From the NCBI GenBank assembly GCA_022829145.1, contig CM040745.1:22598906-22662905 (forward strand): a DNA stretch of 64,000 nt, written 5' to 3'. Below, one piece after another: positions 20,286 through 58,470 of the stretch (position 1 is its first letter; each line of letters starts with the position of its first letter). Below the pieces are notes generated by a model. That model was not told the origin of the DNA. It saw only the letters and a list, made by a program, of their open reading frames with translations, and ran no database searches. The position numbers were made by a program, and so were the translations under genes. The stretch is from Albula goreensis (Eukaryota; Chordata; Actinopteri; Albuliformes; Albulidae).

Positions 20286-23215
20286 ATCTATAAATAATAT
20301 AACCCGAGAAGGAAATATCAGTGCAGACAGAGAGGGAAACTGTGTAGAACCATACATACAAATAGTGAGTTTTAAATAATCAACAAATTATTTTACATCT
20401 GTGACAAAAAAGATACTAATACCAATCAAAATTTATAGTGGACCGTTCTTCAAGCACAACCTCCAACCATAGGTGTTGGACAACTGCTTCACACTCTGTG
20501 TACCAGAGCTTCCTATAAGCCGTCATTGATAATTGAATCTTGTCATTTTTGTGGACATGGACGTTTTCATATAACCACTCTGGAATCTGTTCAGCTGGTT
20601 GTATTTTTTAAGGAAACATTTTTGCACAATATCATAGATGCATATTACATACTCACATCAGTTAAATACTCATATCATTGCCTGTGGCTCTGCTTTTATA
20701 GATGACATAATAACTTAACTGAGTGGGCAGTGTGTGAATGTCAGGCTTGTTGATCACTGAGTGGACAATTTCAATGTGTTACACAATGTCCTAGCTGTCT
20801 CCTACATTGCCTGTGTTTTCTTAAATTTAAGTAATGAATGTTGAGTCACTGACATTTTGTGTATTTTTGGTAGAAAGGTCAACTGAGCACATTTCTCTTC
20901 AACAGTGAAAATATAAGGAAGCAAGGCATGTAGAGAACGCCATGAGCTACATAACCAACTGACTGTTGGGGCAAATATTAGGAAATTAGAGTGGGGGAAT
21001 CAGTTTGGGAAACTAAAGTTTCATCAGAGACCACATCTCATTATAAAGCATGTGTGTCCTCGCTAAGCTTATGTGCAAAGCACTATGATGTGCACTTGTC
21101 AGTTTTTACTCATGCAAGGATGTGAGTGCTCCACAGTTCTATGTAAATTATTTGAACACATTGAGGAAGTAATTTGCACAGGAATCTCTAATCTCAAAAT
21201 CATTCAATCTATCAGTACTTTGTCTATCATGATCATATAAAAACATTATCATACACTGTTCTGGATTTCAAAGGAATAATTCAGGAAGGCAGGAAGCATG
21301 AACATAACATAAAACATATCCTATGAAAAGGTCATTCAGGATCATAACTGGGTAAAAAGTTAATTAAATAAAAGACGCTTACCAAATTCTACTGTATAAT
21401 TCAAAGGCCACAAATGATTGGTTGTACAATGGTTTACATAGGGTGGACCTGGTTACTTTGACATTTTATTACGTATGGATTTAAAAAAAAAAAAAAAAAC
21501 AACAATTTAATTCAATGAAGTTAGAAGTGAAAATAATGTTTTGAGTAAAGTTGAATGTATGGCATTATGTTTCTGATACTTATTGAAGTTTCCGAAAGCT
21601 TCTTTAAAACTATATTGTGTGGATTTCCTGTTTAATGATGTTTTTTTACTGGTATGCCTGGGGAATCTTTTTGTGTCTGGATTATGAGATCCCTGTGATG
21701 TCCCATGACAATTATCCTTCAGAACAATTGTCAAAATATTACTTTTATTTTCTTACAATATGGCAATGATGGATAATGGAAAGAGGCTAAAAATATAACT
21801 TTTGTGTGTTGACAAAAAATGTACCAAAATCTGGGACTTGGGAGTTGCAAAGCTACAACACGGTTTATCAAAATATATTTTCAGAAATGGCAACAGAAAT
21901 CACTCCAATTTCCTGAAATATTGGTACCCTACTGACATAGAAAAGATTTCATTCATACCAGTTTGGCTACCGGGCCAAGTAATACTGCACCTTACTAGCA
22001 TGAATCAGCCAGCCACCTGCAAATTGCCCTCTTAATAGCACCGACCTGTCAGTTCAGGCCCAGTACACCTAAATAGTGAACATCAGGTCATACATTTTTA
22101 AATCGGTACTACTTATCGTTGAAGTTGTTTTTCAAAATAGTTGTTAGTTGATAGTTGCTATCAAAATCTCATCAAATGGCATTTCCTCTGAAATATTCAG
22201 ATGAAATTATGTAGTTCCTTAAGGCTGCATTCATAGTGTATTTTATTTCTCACTATTCACCAGCGACAAACCTTTACTGTGTGCCACTCAAATGCCCAAA
22301 ATTTCAAGAAACATTTAGCAGAACCACAATACTCATTACATGGTCAAATTTTTTATTCACAGCTGAACAGGTGACATAGGTGAGTGAAAGGGAAATGACA
22401 GTGCACCCACATGTTCTTTTCACTGGTTGATTATGGTTTCTTCTGTTTTATTATTCAACAATAAATGCAATAAGTAAATAATACATTTAATTAAGAAATG
22501 TGGACTCACTGACATTCCTGACAATTAAATCACAGTTGCCAACCTTGATAAATCACATTTAAAAATTTTAATTTTTTGTTCCCATGTTTGACCTTTAGAA
22601 TTCTTTGAAGTACATTAATTAAGACATGCAGAAATAGTGTGGCTGCACTACACTCATTTAGCCACATAAAAAGGTACATTAAGTAATGCAATTCCATTGT
22701 TCTGGTGCACTACAAGGCTTTGAGTAAGCTGCCCTTAAATAAATCTGCCTGTCTCAAGCTTTTCTACAAGATAAGTCAGGAATAATGTAAAGCAAGTGAG
22801 TCAGTTGTTTTAAAATAACCACGCAAGGTGAGGCCGAAAGCCAAGGATGCCTATTACCCCAGGACCTTATTTATAACAATTTATTTTGATTTAATCCTGA
22901 ACTTTATTGTAAGATTTCTCAAACAGGGCATGAGCTGAAAATGAATGAATTTGAAATATTTCATGATCTGTGAAACAGTGTTCTCTGCTGAGGTATGCAA
23001 TTCATTTTCTGTGAAACTGGTTAACAAAATATGTAACATTGATATTGTTACATTTACTAGCTATATTAGCTTGCAAAAAATTTCCAAAAAAATTAAACAT
23101 TTTAATCTGTTACATAACCATGAATATAGCTAAGCATGTAAGCATAGCCATTGACAATAAGGACTGAATTCTTTTGCATTCCTATTGGCATTTTCCTGAG
23201 AAGTGTTAGTTGGAA
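20286..23215. other. Intergenic DNA upstream of the candidate promoter
   Basis: AT-rich with short chance frames and an A17-18 run near 21482. A patch at 22755-22870 (AATAACCACGCAAGGTGAGG, CAAGGATGCCTATTACCCC) is denser in mixed-sequence words and could be regulatory. Nothing else is recognised. Confidence 0.4.
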
Positions 23216-23219
23216 TATC

Positions 23220-23587
23220 TTTAGGATAAGGGTTTGTGGCGCTCGTTTTGGTTTCTTGATGGTTTTGGATTCCTGAAAAGAGGGGAGATGTGAACACGAA
23301 TATCTGAGAAAATATAACAGAGTGAGTCTTTAAGGTATTTTATTAATCCAGCATGTGTCTCTCTTTTGTTTATGTTTGTTTTCACTCAGCCAAGTTAAGG
23401 ATTTAAGAAGAGTCTTCAGCAGGAAGAAATACGAGTTTAAATGTTGTTGGACTTTCCCTTTAAATTGTGAATTTATGGTCTGTCCCTTTAACTGAACGCC
23501 TGGCTGGCGATTTCTGGAGAATAGCGGCGTTTAACAGTGTGATGACGTCACAAAACTCTTCTAGCAGCTGTGTGGGGAAGAGGGAGA
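23220..23587 (+). promoter_or_regulatory. Candidate promoter region of an unidentified gene
   Basis: CpG dinucleotides, rare elsewhere in the window, rise here (GGCGCTCG, ACGCCTGGCTGGCGA, ATAGCGGCGT). A perfect CRE lies at 23543-23550, and two CCCTTTAAATTG/CCCTTTAACTG words sit about 50 bases apart upstream of it. No clear TATA box stands at a convincing distance, as is usual for CpG-rich vertebrate promoters. A splice donor follows within 120 bases of the CRE. The alternative is that the block belongs to an unrecognised repeat with promoter-like parts. Confidence 0.45.
23543..23550. promoter_or_regulatory. Full palindromic CRE (TGACGTCA)
   Basis: A perfect eight-base CREB/ATF site in the context GTGATGACGTCACAAAAC. 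It sits 38 bases before the candidate start codon and in CpG-richer DNA than the rest of the window. CREB-bound CREs are typically found within about 200 bases of transcription starts, which fits the promoter reading. Confidence 0.6.
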
Positions 23588-23662
23588 ATGAGTGAGGGTT
23601 GGGGAGGAGACAGCACGGTGGAGCTGCTTGCAGGACAACTAAGCAACTGCAAGTCTTCTCTG
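23588..23662 (+). CDS. Candidate 25-codon first coding exon, gene unidentified
   Basis: An ATG at 23588 (A at -3) opens a frame that begins MSEGWGGDSTVELLAG and ends SNCKSSL exactly at a strong donor, CTG|GTAAGT, leaving phase 0. If the intron is not removed the frame ends 11 codons later. The nearest in-frame upstream stop is at 23543-23545, inside the CRE, and no earlier in-frame ATG lies between them. I do not recognise the protein. The peptide shows no signal sequence or membrane segment. It is too short to name a domain. The remaining exons would lie beyond the window, giving a first intron over 40 kb. Alternatively the exon is entirely untranslated and the short frame is chance. Confidence 0.35.
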
Positions 23663-23670
23663 GTAAGTGT
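23663..23670 (+). other. Candidate 5' splice site (GTAAGTGT)
   Basis: CTG|GTAAGT matches the U1 consensus at six of six intron positions. Its placement just after the CpG-richer, CRE-containing segment and at the end of an open frame is what makes it noteworthy, because GTAAGT alone is common by chance. Confidence 0.45.
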
Positions 23671-24640
23671 GTTTGTGGTCTTTTTCCGGTGTTTATGAAA
23701 TAAAAAAACGAGTATTAACAAGTAGATACCGTGCACGTGTTTTCGCAGAGGAATATGGAAATAGTTTTTGATTCAGATGCATGACATTTCTAATGATACA
23801 TACATGGCTGTTGCCGAAGACTAAATAATTTGTACATCAATTATAGGAGAACAGAAGAAACTGATCATGTCCAAAGTTTTGGTTGGGAAGCATTGTACTT
23901 GTGTCGAAGTATAAAATATAAAGAAAGTGGTTTGGATTGGCTGATTTTGCTGACATTGCACTCGAGCCGGGGGCTAACGATAAAGAAACTTTTCTGTCGG
24001 TAGATGGCTGACGGAGAAAGCCGTGTTGGGAGACCGCAGGGATGATTTGTTAAGTTTTACATGGATGTAAGATGCAAGTGTAAGGCTGGGAACGGATGTG
24101 GCACTGCAATTGAACTTAAATCGAGAAGCAAGACTAGTCTTATTTTAGTAATAGTGTACTAGCATACAGTTAAAGAAACGGAGAAAAGAAAAATGTTAAC
24201 TGTGTCGCTAGCATTGAAGGTTTCAATGATTAACCACGCATACTCATGCAATGTACAATATTGTCAACTGCCCATATTCGCAATACAATACATTTCCATA
24301 TTAACAATACAATTAAAATGTTTATTTTAACCGATAATTAATATCATATTTTGTTTTAAAAATAATTTTTTAAGGCAAATTATTTGTACTTCTTGTTGAA
24401 CTTCAGCTTAACAGTGTTGTATGAGTCATTGGTGAACGATAAAAAGAAGTGGATTGTGTCTAATCCGTTGTCTCCGTCTAGAGGACTGTCGTTTTATTAG
24501 ACAGTAGAAATGCAACACAATCGCACACTTTTTATCCTGGTACTTCAGACAGGGTGTTCGTTGTCAAGATGATTGGTTATTATACTTGATTGTATTTTTA
24601 ATCATTAAGTTACTTCATTAACAATTAACTGCTAATTTCT
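23671..24640. other. Proximal part of candidate first intron
   Basis: Retains scattered CpGs to about 24,190 (CACTCGAGCCGGGGGCTAA, GGAGAAAGCCGTGTTGGG) before returning to AT-rich DNA. That fits the downstream half of a weak CpG island. No further open frame of interest. Confidence 0.35.
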
Positions 24641-24649
24641 TAATTCTGT

Positions 24650-25040
24650 CATCACCTGATATTACCCCTTTATGGTCATCATCAGGAGATGCTTGAAAAG
24701 CAGCCATGCTCCTTTCCCACAGTTTATGGAACCAGTGCCCTTCATCTTGGTTATTTTGCAGTCTGGAGTTACATTATGCAGTCCTACCATGGACATTAAT
24801 TATGCGTCACCACTCTCAGAGCTGTACCATGTACTGTGCATCGTGCAATTTTCAAGATGAAGGCAGTGATTTGCTCCAGGGTGGCTCTCTTGACCCTTGG
24901 TATGGCCAGTGTGGAGTTAGTTCAAAGCTGACAGCTTCACCCTGAGTGCACAGATAGCGAGACATATCCTTCTTATTTGTGGTTGCCAGAAGTGCAGCTA
25001 AAGAACTCCGGAGTTGACACATTATCCTCTATGACTGCTA
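24650..25040. other. Candidate conserved element in proposed intron
   Basis: Mixed composition with ATTAATTATGCGTCACCAC, GCTCCAGGGTGGCTC, GACCCTTGGTATGGCCAG and CTAAAGAACTCCGGAGTTG. Two overlapping plus-strand frames (24672-24860, 24706-24945) are probably a by-product of the higher GC. An alternative or additional exon cannot be excluded. Confidence 0.22.
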
Positions 25041-42547: not shown

Positions 42548-42770
42548 GGGGGCAGCCTATAGCCTAGTGGCTAAGGTACATGACTGGGACCCCTGAGGTT
42601 GGCAGTTCAAGTCCCAGTCCAGCCACAGTAAGAACACCATTGCTGTTGGGTCCTTGAGCAAGACCCTTAACCCCACATTGCTCCCAGGGGAGATTGGGCC
42701 TTGGTTAGTCTACTCAACTGTAAGTCGCTTTGGATAAAAGCGTCAGCTAAATGACAGTAATGTAATGTAT
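42548..42770 (+). mobile_element. tRNA-derived SINE (V-SINE/DANA/HE1-like)
   Basis: A tRNA-like head carries a polymerase III A box (TAGCCTAGTGG, 42560-42570) and B box (AGTTCAAGTCC, 42604-42614) at the normal spacing. A body with GGTCCTTGAGCAAGACCCTTA follows, then the LINE-matched tail with CGCTTTGGATAAAAGCGTC at 42726-42744 and an (AATGT)n end. All parts are in order and well preserved, so this is one of the younger insertions in the window. It is mobilised in trans by a partner LINE sharing the tail. The minus-strand frame over it is an artefact. Confidence 0.88.
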
Positions 42771-49440: not shown

Positions 49441-50580
49441 GTTAATTTAGGGGGTGCTATATCTAGGGGGTACGGTTGGTTCTAGACAAAGACCCAGCAT
49501 TTTCCACAAAACCTTACATTAACAAGTAAAAGGTTTAAACACACAATAATCAATAATGATATAACATCAGCATAAACAAGAAATCATACCCTCCAGCTTA
49601 TGCCCCCATTACTGGGGGACAGGAGCAACCACCCCATGCCGTCTCTGTTCTGGAGGTGAAAGTGGCCTTCTCAGTTGAAGAGAAAATTATGGAAAGGCCT
49701 ATCCAAAGGGAAAGGCAGTTGCCGAGGGCTGATGGGAAGCAACATGTGGGTCATTTTCTGTCAAATTTCCCTCTCATTTAAGAGAAAATGTAAGAAGGGA
49801 CAAATGGCCATCACATCAGTTAGGTGACATGCATGAAAATCGGCAAGATCTGTGTCACATTCGGCAAAGGGTCCTTTTCCAGTTTTTTAACCTATGCCCC
49901 TAAGAGTCACTACTGCAACACTAATGCATGGACGACACTGTCATCATTGACTTGGAAGGACAAATCATGTAGGTCCAGATTCAGATCCTACATTCAACAT
50001 AGCCAACTGTATTTGCAATTAGGAAATTGAAATCTCATGTAATTGTTTACTATGTAACAATGTAACAGAAACTTGACATCAGTTTGACATTTATAGGCTA
50101 TTTCTTCTCAACAATCAATTCCTGCTGTTTGAGAGACAAAGTTCTCAACAACACTATCTCTTGCCAAGTGAAATTTATTAATAGTTGGAGGACCTTTTAT
50201 AAATGTAAGATTCCTAGGCTCCATTCCGATACACAACTTGAGGTGAGTTAGATAATTTCACCCATGTCCAATCAGTATCTGATCTTTTGCTTTGTCTAAA
50301 CAGCAAATAGACGCATGGAGACAGATTTATTCAAATCTTATTCATATCTGGTACCTGCATGTGCAACTTTGGTTGTCCAATCAAATCTGGTTATTTTCCT
50401 ATATTCGCCCTAGTGGTTTTTTGATAATTCTCCATGCAGCACTGTGTTTTCTTACATCATCACTCCATGGCAAAAATATGAACAAGCATGGCTTGCCTGA
50501 GCACCCTCGATCTGGTCACCAGTACAGTTTGTTTTGTTTGTTTGCTTGTGAGAAGAGCATGGGCATCAGTTTGTTTTGAA
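49441..50580. other. Unannotated stretch, possibly repeat-derived
   Basis: The 49440-49760 part (GGGGGTGCTATATCTAGGGG, CAGGAGCAACCACCCCATGC) differs in composition from its flanks and looks like a decayed insertion of unknown family. No frame is informative. Confidence 0.25.
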
Positions 50581-57412: not shown

Positions 57413-58470
57413 GACATAAGAACATAAGAACATAAGAAGAACATAAGAACATATTATGACGAGGACAGGCCATTCGGCCCAACAAAGCTCGCCATTACAT
57501 TATTTAAAGAGTATCCAAAACTGCATCAAGTCTGGACTTGAACACAGCAAGGGTCTCTGCCTCAACTACATGACCTGGCAACCCATTCCATGTATTGATA
57601 ACTCTTTGCGTGAAATAATACTTCCTTACATCAGTGCGGAACTTACTCTTAACTAGTTTCCATTTATGTCCCCTTGTCTTACAGACTGAACTTAATTTAA
57701 AAAATGTATCGTAGCTAACCTTGTTGAGTCCCTTTATAAATTTAAAAACCTCTATTAAATCACCCCTTAGTCTCCTCTTGCTGAGTCTAAATAGGTTAAG
57801 TAACTTTAGTCTTGCCTCGTAGCTTTTATGTTTCATGCCAGGAACTAATTTAGTTGCCCTCCTTTGTACTTTTTCAAGAGCCTCGATATCTTTCTTATAG
57901 TGCGGTGCCCAGAACTGCACACAGTATTCCAAGCGTGGTCTAACTAAAGCATTGTATAATTTTAATATAACCTCCTTAGATTTATAATCAATACTTTTGG
58001 CTATATATCCTAGCATCCTGTTGGCCTTTTTTTTGCTACAGCACACTGCCTAGATCCTGTTAGGCTTTGGTCAACTATTACTCCCAAGTCTTTTTCAAAT
58101 TGAGCACAATCTAGTTTACTTCCTCCCATGAAGTAGTCTTGTCTGATGTTCTTGTTGCCCACATGCAAGACTTTACATTTAGTTAAGTTGAATGTCATCT
58201 GCCAGGTACCTGCCCACATATGGATGCTGTTTAGGTCTTCTTGTATTACCTTAGTTGATTCTATACTGTTTGCTAGTCCCCCCAGTTTTGTGTCATCTGC
58301 AAATTTTACTATTTTACTACTAACCTCTGCATCAAGATCATTTATGTAAATAAGGAAAAGCAAAGGCCCCAACACCGATCCCTGTGGGACTCCACTTCTC
58401 ACAGGACCCTGTTCTGAAACAATTCCTCCAACAGTTACACTCTGCTTACTACCAGCCAGCCAACTTCAAA
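57413..58470 (-). mobile_element. 5'-truncated CR1-clade LINE, reverse transcriptase C-terminal half plus 3' end
   Basis: On the minus strand the order is: thumb-proximal WLAGSKQSVTVGG; GVPQGSVLGPLLFLIYIND; the catalytic FADDTKLGG (FADD at 58292-58303); WQMTFNLTKCKVLHVG; then, in another frame, NRMLGYIAKSIDYKSKEVI, LVRPRLEYCVQFWAPHYKKD, LEKVQRRATKLVPG, and the C-terminal RVINTWNGLPGHVVEAETL, stopping at 57504. A short untranslated part with GGCCATTCGGCCCAACAAAG and an (AACATAAG)n tail at 57413-57452 completes the 3' end. One frameshift lies in the run of eight A (plus T8) near 58027-58034, between AVAKK and KANRML. A stop (TGA at 58466-58468, apparently for Trp) lies near the 5' edge. Endonuclease and fingers are missing. 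It is a typical dead, 5'-truncated LINE insertion. Confidence 0.9.

Follow-up and report, generated by a model that had tools for sequence, protein, structure and literature searches.

A CpG-retaining island with a consensus CRE as the probable promoter of gulp1 in Albula goreensis

In the 64,000-nucleotide stretch of Albula goreensis DNA analyzed here (hereafter, the window), a CpG-retaining island at 23.2–24.5 kb is, judging from the sequence, probably the promoter of gulp1, from which a 5′ untranslated exon 1 would be spliced over a 65.8-kb intron. The assignment builds on the CpG island and the motifs within it, the finding of a single copy, the coding exons of gulp1 with their splice sites, an in-frame stop codon, and the order of the neighboring genes. 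The protein GULP1, of the CED-6 family, assists cells in engulfing other cells or their debris. An anonymous exon guess has thereby become a probable promoter with a name: it would belong to gulp1, carry a CRE and precede a first intron of 66 kb. We regard the island as promoter-like and the exon as probably the true first exon of an already known gene, both of an ordinary kind.

Results

A CpG-retaining island in a CpG-depleted window

The first-pass annotation had reported locally raised CpG at positions 23220–23670, and this segment turned out to be only the left part of a CpG island. Positions 23200–24500 hold 35 CpGs at an observed/expected ratio (o/e) of 0.81 and a GC content of 0.38, as against an o/e of 0.17 in the remainder of the window; CpG is thus kept within the island and depleted around it. 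When windows of 300 bp were ranked by CpG o/e, the top 17 had their starts from 23451 to 24351, with the windows over the candidate exon described below (starts 23551 and 23601) ranking lower, at 0.60 and 0.64. The excess of TG and CA was smaller inside the island (1.15 and 1.16) than outside (1.41 and 1.39), which is the expectation where decay of methyl-CpG is absent. By a stricter interval rule, the island spans 23402–24701. The CpG island itself is more than chance, and it is putatively unmethylated. This is a worked case of a probable fish-type promoter that is found by local CpG retention, not by GC content. Over the whole window the CpG o/e is 0.186 (a value of ~0.19 lies below the usual teleost value), and it is 0.21 across 262 kb.

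The island does not behave as a multi-copy repeat. The 451-bp segment had one match, at its own position C5:22622125-22622575, in the 932-Mb, 208-contig assembly, in a copy search that skips very common words, and we found no second copy of the island in 312 kb. The description of the window as otherwise empty of genes also held, within a scan that short exons could escape: Pfam was run at E 0.01 on 150 segments out of a selection of 151, made up of 120 stop-to-stop frames with at least 70 codons and 31 coding-scan segments, and the only match below E 0.001 was a reverse transcriptase (RVT_1; E 1.5e-12). RVT_1 was also matched, at E 3.2e-12, by the frame 58010–58402 on the minus strand. The open frame 57504–58046 (minus strand), itself without a Pfam match, adjoins this frame and was read as its continuation, with 57504–58402 (minus strand) as the likely remains of a LINE-type reverse transcriptase. 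Two weaker matches, to DUF6442 (E 0.0042) and GST_C (E 0.0054), were taken as chance among the 150 segments scanned at that threshold. At Rfam gathering thresholds, the window yielded only a UnaL2-type LINE 3′ end (42707–42760, plus strand), and we found no tRNAs in it.

A CRE and a strong donor flank a short candidate exon

Within the island and its downstream flank, we assigned the following features:

23200–24500, no strand: CpG-retaining island of ordinary GC content (putative non-methylated island), presumed gulp1 promoter; CpG o/e 0.81 vs 0.17
23543–23550, no strand: consensus full CRE, palindromic, TGACGTCA; only copy in 64 kb, 0.015 expected in the island
23551–23662, plus strand: putative 5′ untranslated exon 1 of gulp1; strongest donor of the island, and first plus-strand coding exons recognised downstream are those of gulp1
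23588–23662, plus strand: 25-codon open frame; if transcribed and joined to exon 2, the opening part of a 47-codon upstream frame by translation of the joined exons, the frame by itself being within chance
23910–24066, plus strand: possible, unproven second start in the island, from the motif list (TATAAAA at 23910, ATTGG, an inverted CCAAT, at 23936, and donor GAT|GTAAGA after 24066, weak at 6.3 bits)
23663–64000, plus strand: 5′ portion of the presumed gulp1 intron 1; predicted intron end, extended position 89508 (L004:5813)

The perfect CRE described at this spot is indeed there. TGACGTCA occurs once in the 64-kb window, where a first-order Markov model predicts 0.20 copies, and three times in 312 kb; its presence inside the island, judged against the island's own dinucleotides, is more than chance. 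It lies ~40 bp 5′ of the exon ATG at 23588, possibly near a transcription start. That ATG carries an A at −3, and the frame it opens stays open for 25 codons and ends in phase 0 at CTG|GTAAGT, with 23662 as the last base of the exon, all as originally described.

With a splice-site matrix, the donor at 23662 scores 10.6 bits, a value reached by nine plus-strand sites in the 64 kb, itself counted; the next-best donor at 23200–24700 on both strands scores 8.2 bits and lies on the other strand. The strength of this donor is above chance. It sets the 3′ end of the candidate exon, while the left edge at 23551 was placed 3′ of the CRE by assumption. The TATA box and inverted CCAAT at 23910–23940 suggest another start within the same island.

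The 25-codon frame, taken by itself, is not beyond chance. In simulations with local composition, 24 codons remained open in 28% of cases, and in 9% once phase 0 was added. Across the window, 22 ATGs (23588 included) begin a frame that reaches, in phase 0 and without a stop, a donor of at least 8 bits located 30–300 nt away; a purine stands at −3 in 12 of these. The coding score of the frame from 23588 was 7.0 bits, compared with at most 5.7 for the other five frames. The 25-residue peptide had no match in Pfam, and its best PDB hit, the chain named SBP-Tag (E 0.94), was not meaningful.

The gulp1 coding exons begin 66 kb downstream

To extend the analysis, we added 50 kb of upstream and 198 kb of downstream sequence, numbered in continuation of the window coordinates (below 1 on the upstream side, above 64000 on the downstream side). 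Plus-strand exons recognised as GULP1 emerged at 107 kb in a coding-potential scan, and tblastn with human GULP1 retrieved the exons in order on the plus strand. With boundaries set by hand at GT-AG sites, gulp1 comprises ten coding exons at 89561–109712 (extended coordinates) and nine GT-AG introns:

89561–89588, 97416–97477, 99164–99235, 103870–103968, 105640–105777, plus strand: gulp1 coding exons, joined at GT-AG sites
105906–106022, 106579–106665, 107241–107376, 107889–107983, 109641–109712, plus strand: gulp1 coding exons, continued, joined at GT-AG sites

The joined exons give an open protein of 301 aa. Among solved structures it comes closest to 6itu (PTB domain-containing engulfment adapter protein 1; E 1.7e-103), with residues 1–168 aligned to 1–168, and it matches Pfam PID (PTB/PID domain) at E 8.1e-33. 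Exon by exon, identity to human GULP1 ranged from 46 to 96% over ten matches (46% for the proline-rich exon and at least 64% for the others). The downstream gene thus encodes GULP1, with its PTB domain and an open reading frame. Gulp1 is reported to work in Eph/ephrin trogocytosis and to bind EphB2 via its PTB domain (PMC6781437), and GULP1 is named in a network table of another article (PMC5335607). Among the matches listed for GULP1 with promoter and CpG, with zebrafish, and with CREB and cAMP, none described a gulp1 first exon.

The exon at 23.5 kb would join gulp1 as an untranslated leader

The coding start of gulp1 is located ~66,000 bases 3′ of the 23.5-kb spot. Its exon 2 begins at 89509, behind the acceptor TTTTCAG|GTAGAACC, and since 52 nt separate this acceptor from the ATG, one or more non-coding exons should precede it. 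Given that gulp1 supplies the first plus-strand coding exons recognised downstream, the exon at 23.5 kb is most likely the 5′ untranslated exon of this gene. From 23662 to the exon 2 acceptor, the presumed first intron measures 65,846 nt, and its donor and acceptor sequences are compatible. Of the earlier proposal—a coding first exon followed by an intron of more than 40 kb—sequence and gene order thus support the promoter, the first exon and the long intron; the coding part did not survive.

The latter point turns largely on exon 2. It is here that the normal start codon of GULP1 lies; the protein begins with MNRAF, in alignment with residue 1 of chain 6itu_A, and the first exon would therefore be untranslated. 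An in-frame TAG stands 48 nt 5′ of the GULP1 ATG, so that coding sequence farther 5′ cannot lengthen GULP1 by way of exon 2. Moreover, when the 25-codon exon is joined to exon 2 in phase 0, its frame runs on for 22 further codons, 47 in all, and terminates past the GULP1 start in a different frame; A is found at −3 of both ATGs. The frame of the 25-codon exon accordingly does not continue into GULP1 via exon 2. Exons 4–9 and 11 do start in phase 0, but an in-frame join to any of them would skip at least exons 2 and 3 and the protein start would be lost. The idea that the peptide forms the N-terminus of the protein is hence contradicted by the TAG, the out-of-frame join and the MNRAF start, alongside the missing Pfam and meaningful PDB matches, and most likely the peptide at 23588 is not part of the protein. 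This corrects the inference that a frame open up to a donor marks a coding exon.

Gene order and other CpG-retaining intervals

Upstream, on the minus strand, we found two Kunitz exons (L026:6851-7054 and L026:3067-3231) of a tfpi-like gene. For the one of them that was compared with PDB, tissue factor pathway inhibitor ranked at the top (E 4.3e-38), in a near tie with another multi-Kunitz inhibitor (4.6e-38). A signal-peptide-like exon (−24986 to −25076, minus strand) joins this Kunitz exon in frame, with an 18-kb intron between, and is located within a CpG-retaining island 2.8 kb long (−25.8 to −23.0 kb). Downstream of gulp1, at 115–139 kb on the minus strand, follow exons of a fibrillar collagen (VWC and COLFI in Pfam), of which the C-terminal COLFI exon matched collagens I and III in PDB. 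We take this first collagen after gulp1 to be COL5A2-like and presume that such a collagen directly after gulp1 fits fish; in human, COL3A1 presumably lies between GULP1 and COL5A2, whereas here the COL5A2-like collagen comes first. The order of tfpi, gulp1 and collagen is, as we assume, that of human 2q32.

By the island rule, ten intervals in 311,994 bases retain CpG:

−28, −25, −20, −10, 23.4–24.7, 134, 174, 185, 186 and 217 kb, no strand: CpG-retaining intervals by the island rule
133852–134701, 174552–175401, 185152–185951, 186052–187251 and 216652–218201, no strand: the downstream CpG-retaining intervals, the first within the collagen exon span

Four of them fall between the first coding exon of the tfpi-like gene (−24986) and the gulp1 start (89561), namely the tfpi-like island and the intervals at −20 kb, −10 kb and 23.4–24.7 kb. 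The −20 kb interval was discarded as a promoter, its repetitive translation pointing to a simple repeat, and those at −10 and −28 kb are inverted copies of one CpG-rich repeat. This repeat pair (−28.5 to −26.9 and −10.7 to −9.4 kb) shares 79–83% identity over 0.8–1.2 kb and is one source of false CpG-island signals here. Within the window, two weaker CpG-rich stretches remain below the rule, at 37.75–38.3 kb (o/e 0.45) and 50.2–50.9 kb (o/e 0.46). The latter, of which no second copy was found in 312 kb, lies within the presumed intron and bears a plus-strand donor, GAG|GTGAGT, at 50242 (12.4 bits); it could be another gulp1 leader exon or start.

Discussion

Alternative readings of the island and the exon

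The main competitor to a gulp1 promoter is that the island serves a long non-coding RNA or acts as a distal enhancer, with the main gulp1 start elsewhere, for example head to head with the tfpi-like gene in the island at −24 kb or near 50.2–50.9 kb; we consider this unlikely. In a study of zebrafish, 9% of intergenic islands lie on non-coding RNA starts and a further 40% on putative enhancers (PMC3583005). As for the other locations, the tfpi-like island is long enough, at 2.8 kb, to leave room for a divergent plus-strand start, but it already has an owner in the 5′ coding exon of the tfpi-like gene; the 50-kb stretch offers a strong plus-strand donor, but keeps much less CpG (0.46 vs 0.81). 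Under the island rule, no other CpG-retaining interval 5′ of gulp1 is closer to the gene than the 23.5-kb island, whose strong donor also faces the right way. Since islands also mark non-coding RNA starts and enhancers, and since the 50-kb stretch has the better donor, we rate the gulp1 assignment as likely, yet unproven.

That the exon is, after all, the coding phase-0 first exon of a large gene, with the peptide as the N-terminus of its protein, we hold to be highly improbable. The open frame, the A at −3, the phase-0 end and a coding score slightly above that of the other five frames all speak for it. Such frames are common by chance, however, and the peptide has no relative in Pfam or PDB; the stop and frame mismatch in gulp1 exon 2 block the direct join, the joins to the later phase-0 exons forfeit the protein start, and no other plus-strand gene was recognised between 23.5 kb and gulp1 that could take the exon up. 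A third possibility modifies the gulp1 reading itself. If transcription started upstream of 23588, the exon would carry a working upstream open reading frame whose 47 codons terminate within the coding sequence of GULP1, and GULP1 would be made by leaky scanning only. The joined exons do translate as such an overlapping frame, with A at −3 of both ATGs; the frame, on the other hand, is not beyond chance, and we deem this variant rather unlikely. Given that an ATG at 23588 within the mRNA would hamper GULP1 translation, the main start may instead lie downstream of it.

A proposed route from island to GULP1, and its relation to cAMP

Under our preferred reading, in which the island is the gulp1 promoter, unmethylated CpGs would hold the site open, a CREB/ATF-type factor could bind the CRE, and transcription would proceed rightward from the island. 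A short first exon would then be spliced from 23662 to exon 2 at extended position 89509. The 25-codon frame would be a matter of chance or, with a start upstream of 23588, would become part of the 47-codon upstream frame that lowers GULP1 translation.

The combination of CRE and overlapping upstream frame is the only novel reading left; it is a regulatory one, at which the sequence does no more than hint. In its full form, gulp1 would be under a two-step stress/cAMP switch, with a CRE-driven promoter and the overlapping 47-codon frame holding down translation of GULP1 until the conditions for scanning change—a proposal that we think very unlikely to hold. If true, the switch would set engulfment capacity by CREB/ATF signalling at the levels of both transcription and translation; use of the overlapping frame would, speculatively, link cAMP/stress signalling to the control of an engulfment adaptor. 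In cultured astrocytes, Gulp1 is listed among the genes whose expression falls under prolonged cAMP (PMC4842285), a result that shows no direct effect and neither proves nor excludes a role of the CRE.

Comparison with known systems

In its CpG pattern, the island resembles the non-methylated island promoters of cold-blooded vertebrates described by Long et al. 2013 (PMC3583005), with which it shares a high CpG o/e, a GC content near that of the surroundings and a presumed start. In that study, zebrafish non-methylated islands overlap 55% of starts, and their GC content almost equals that of their surroundings (PMC3583005). The island here is recognised by its retained CpG and is putatively non-methylated. 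The gene as a whole is like human GULP1 in its PTB/PID domain, in a start codon placed in exon 2 after a non-coding stretch, and in its tfpi-like and fibrillar collagen neighbors. Finally, CRE-bearing promoters are a kind known from CREB/ATF target genes, and the presumed gulp1 promoter is like them in carrying, as a putative site, a perfect palindromic CRE within a promoter island.
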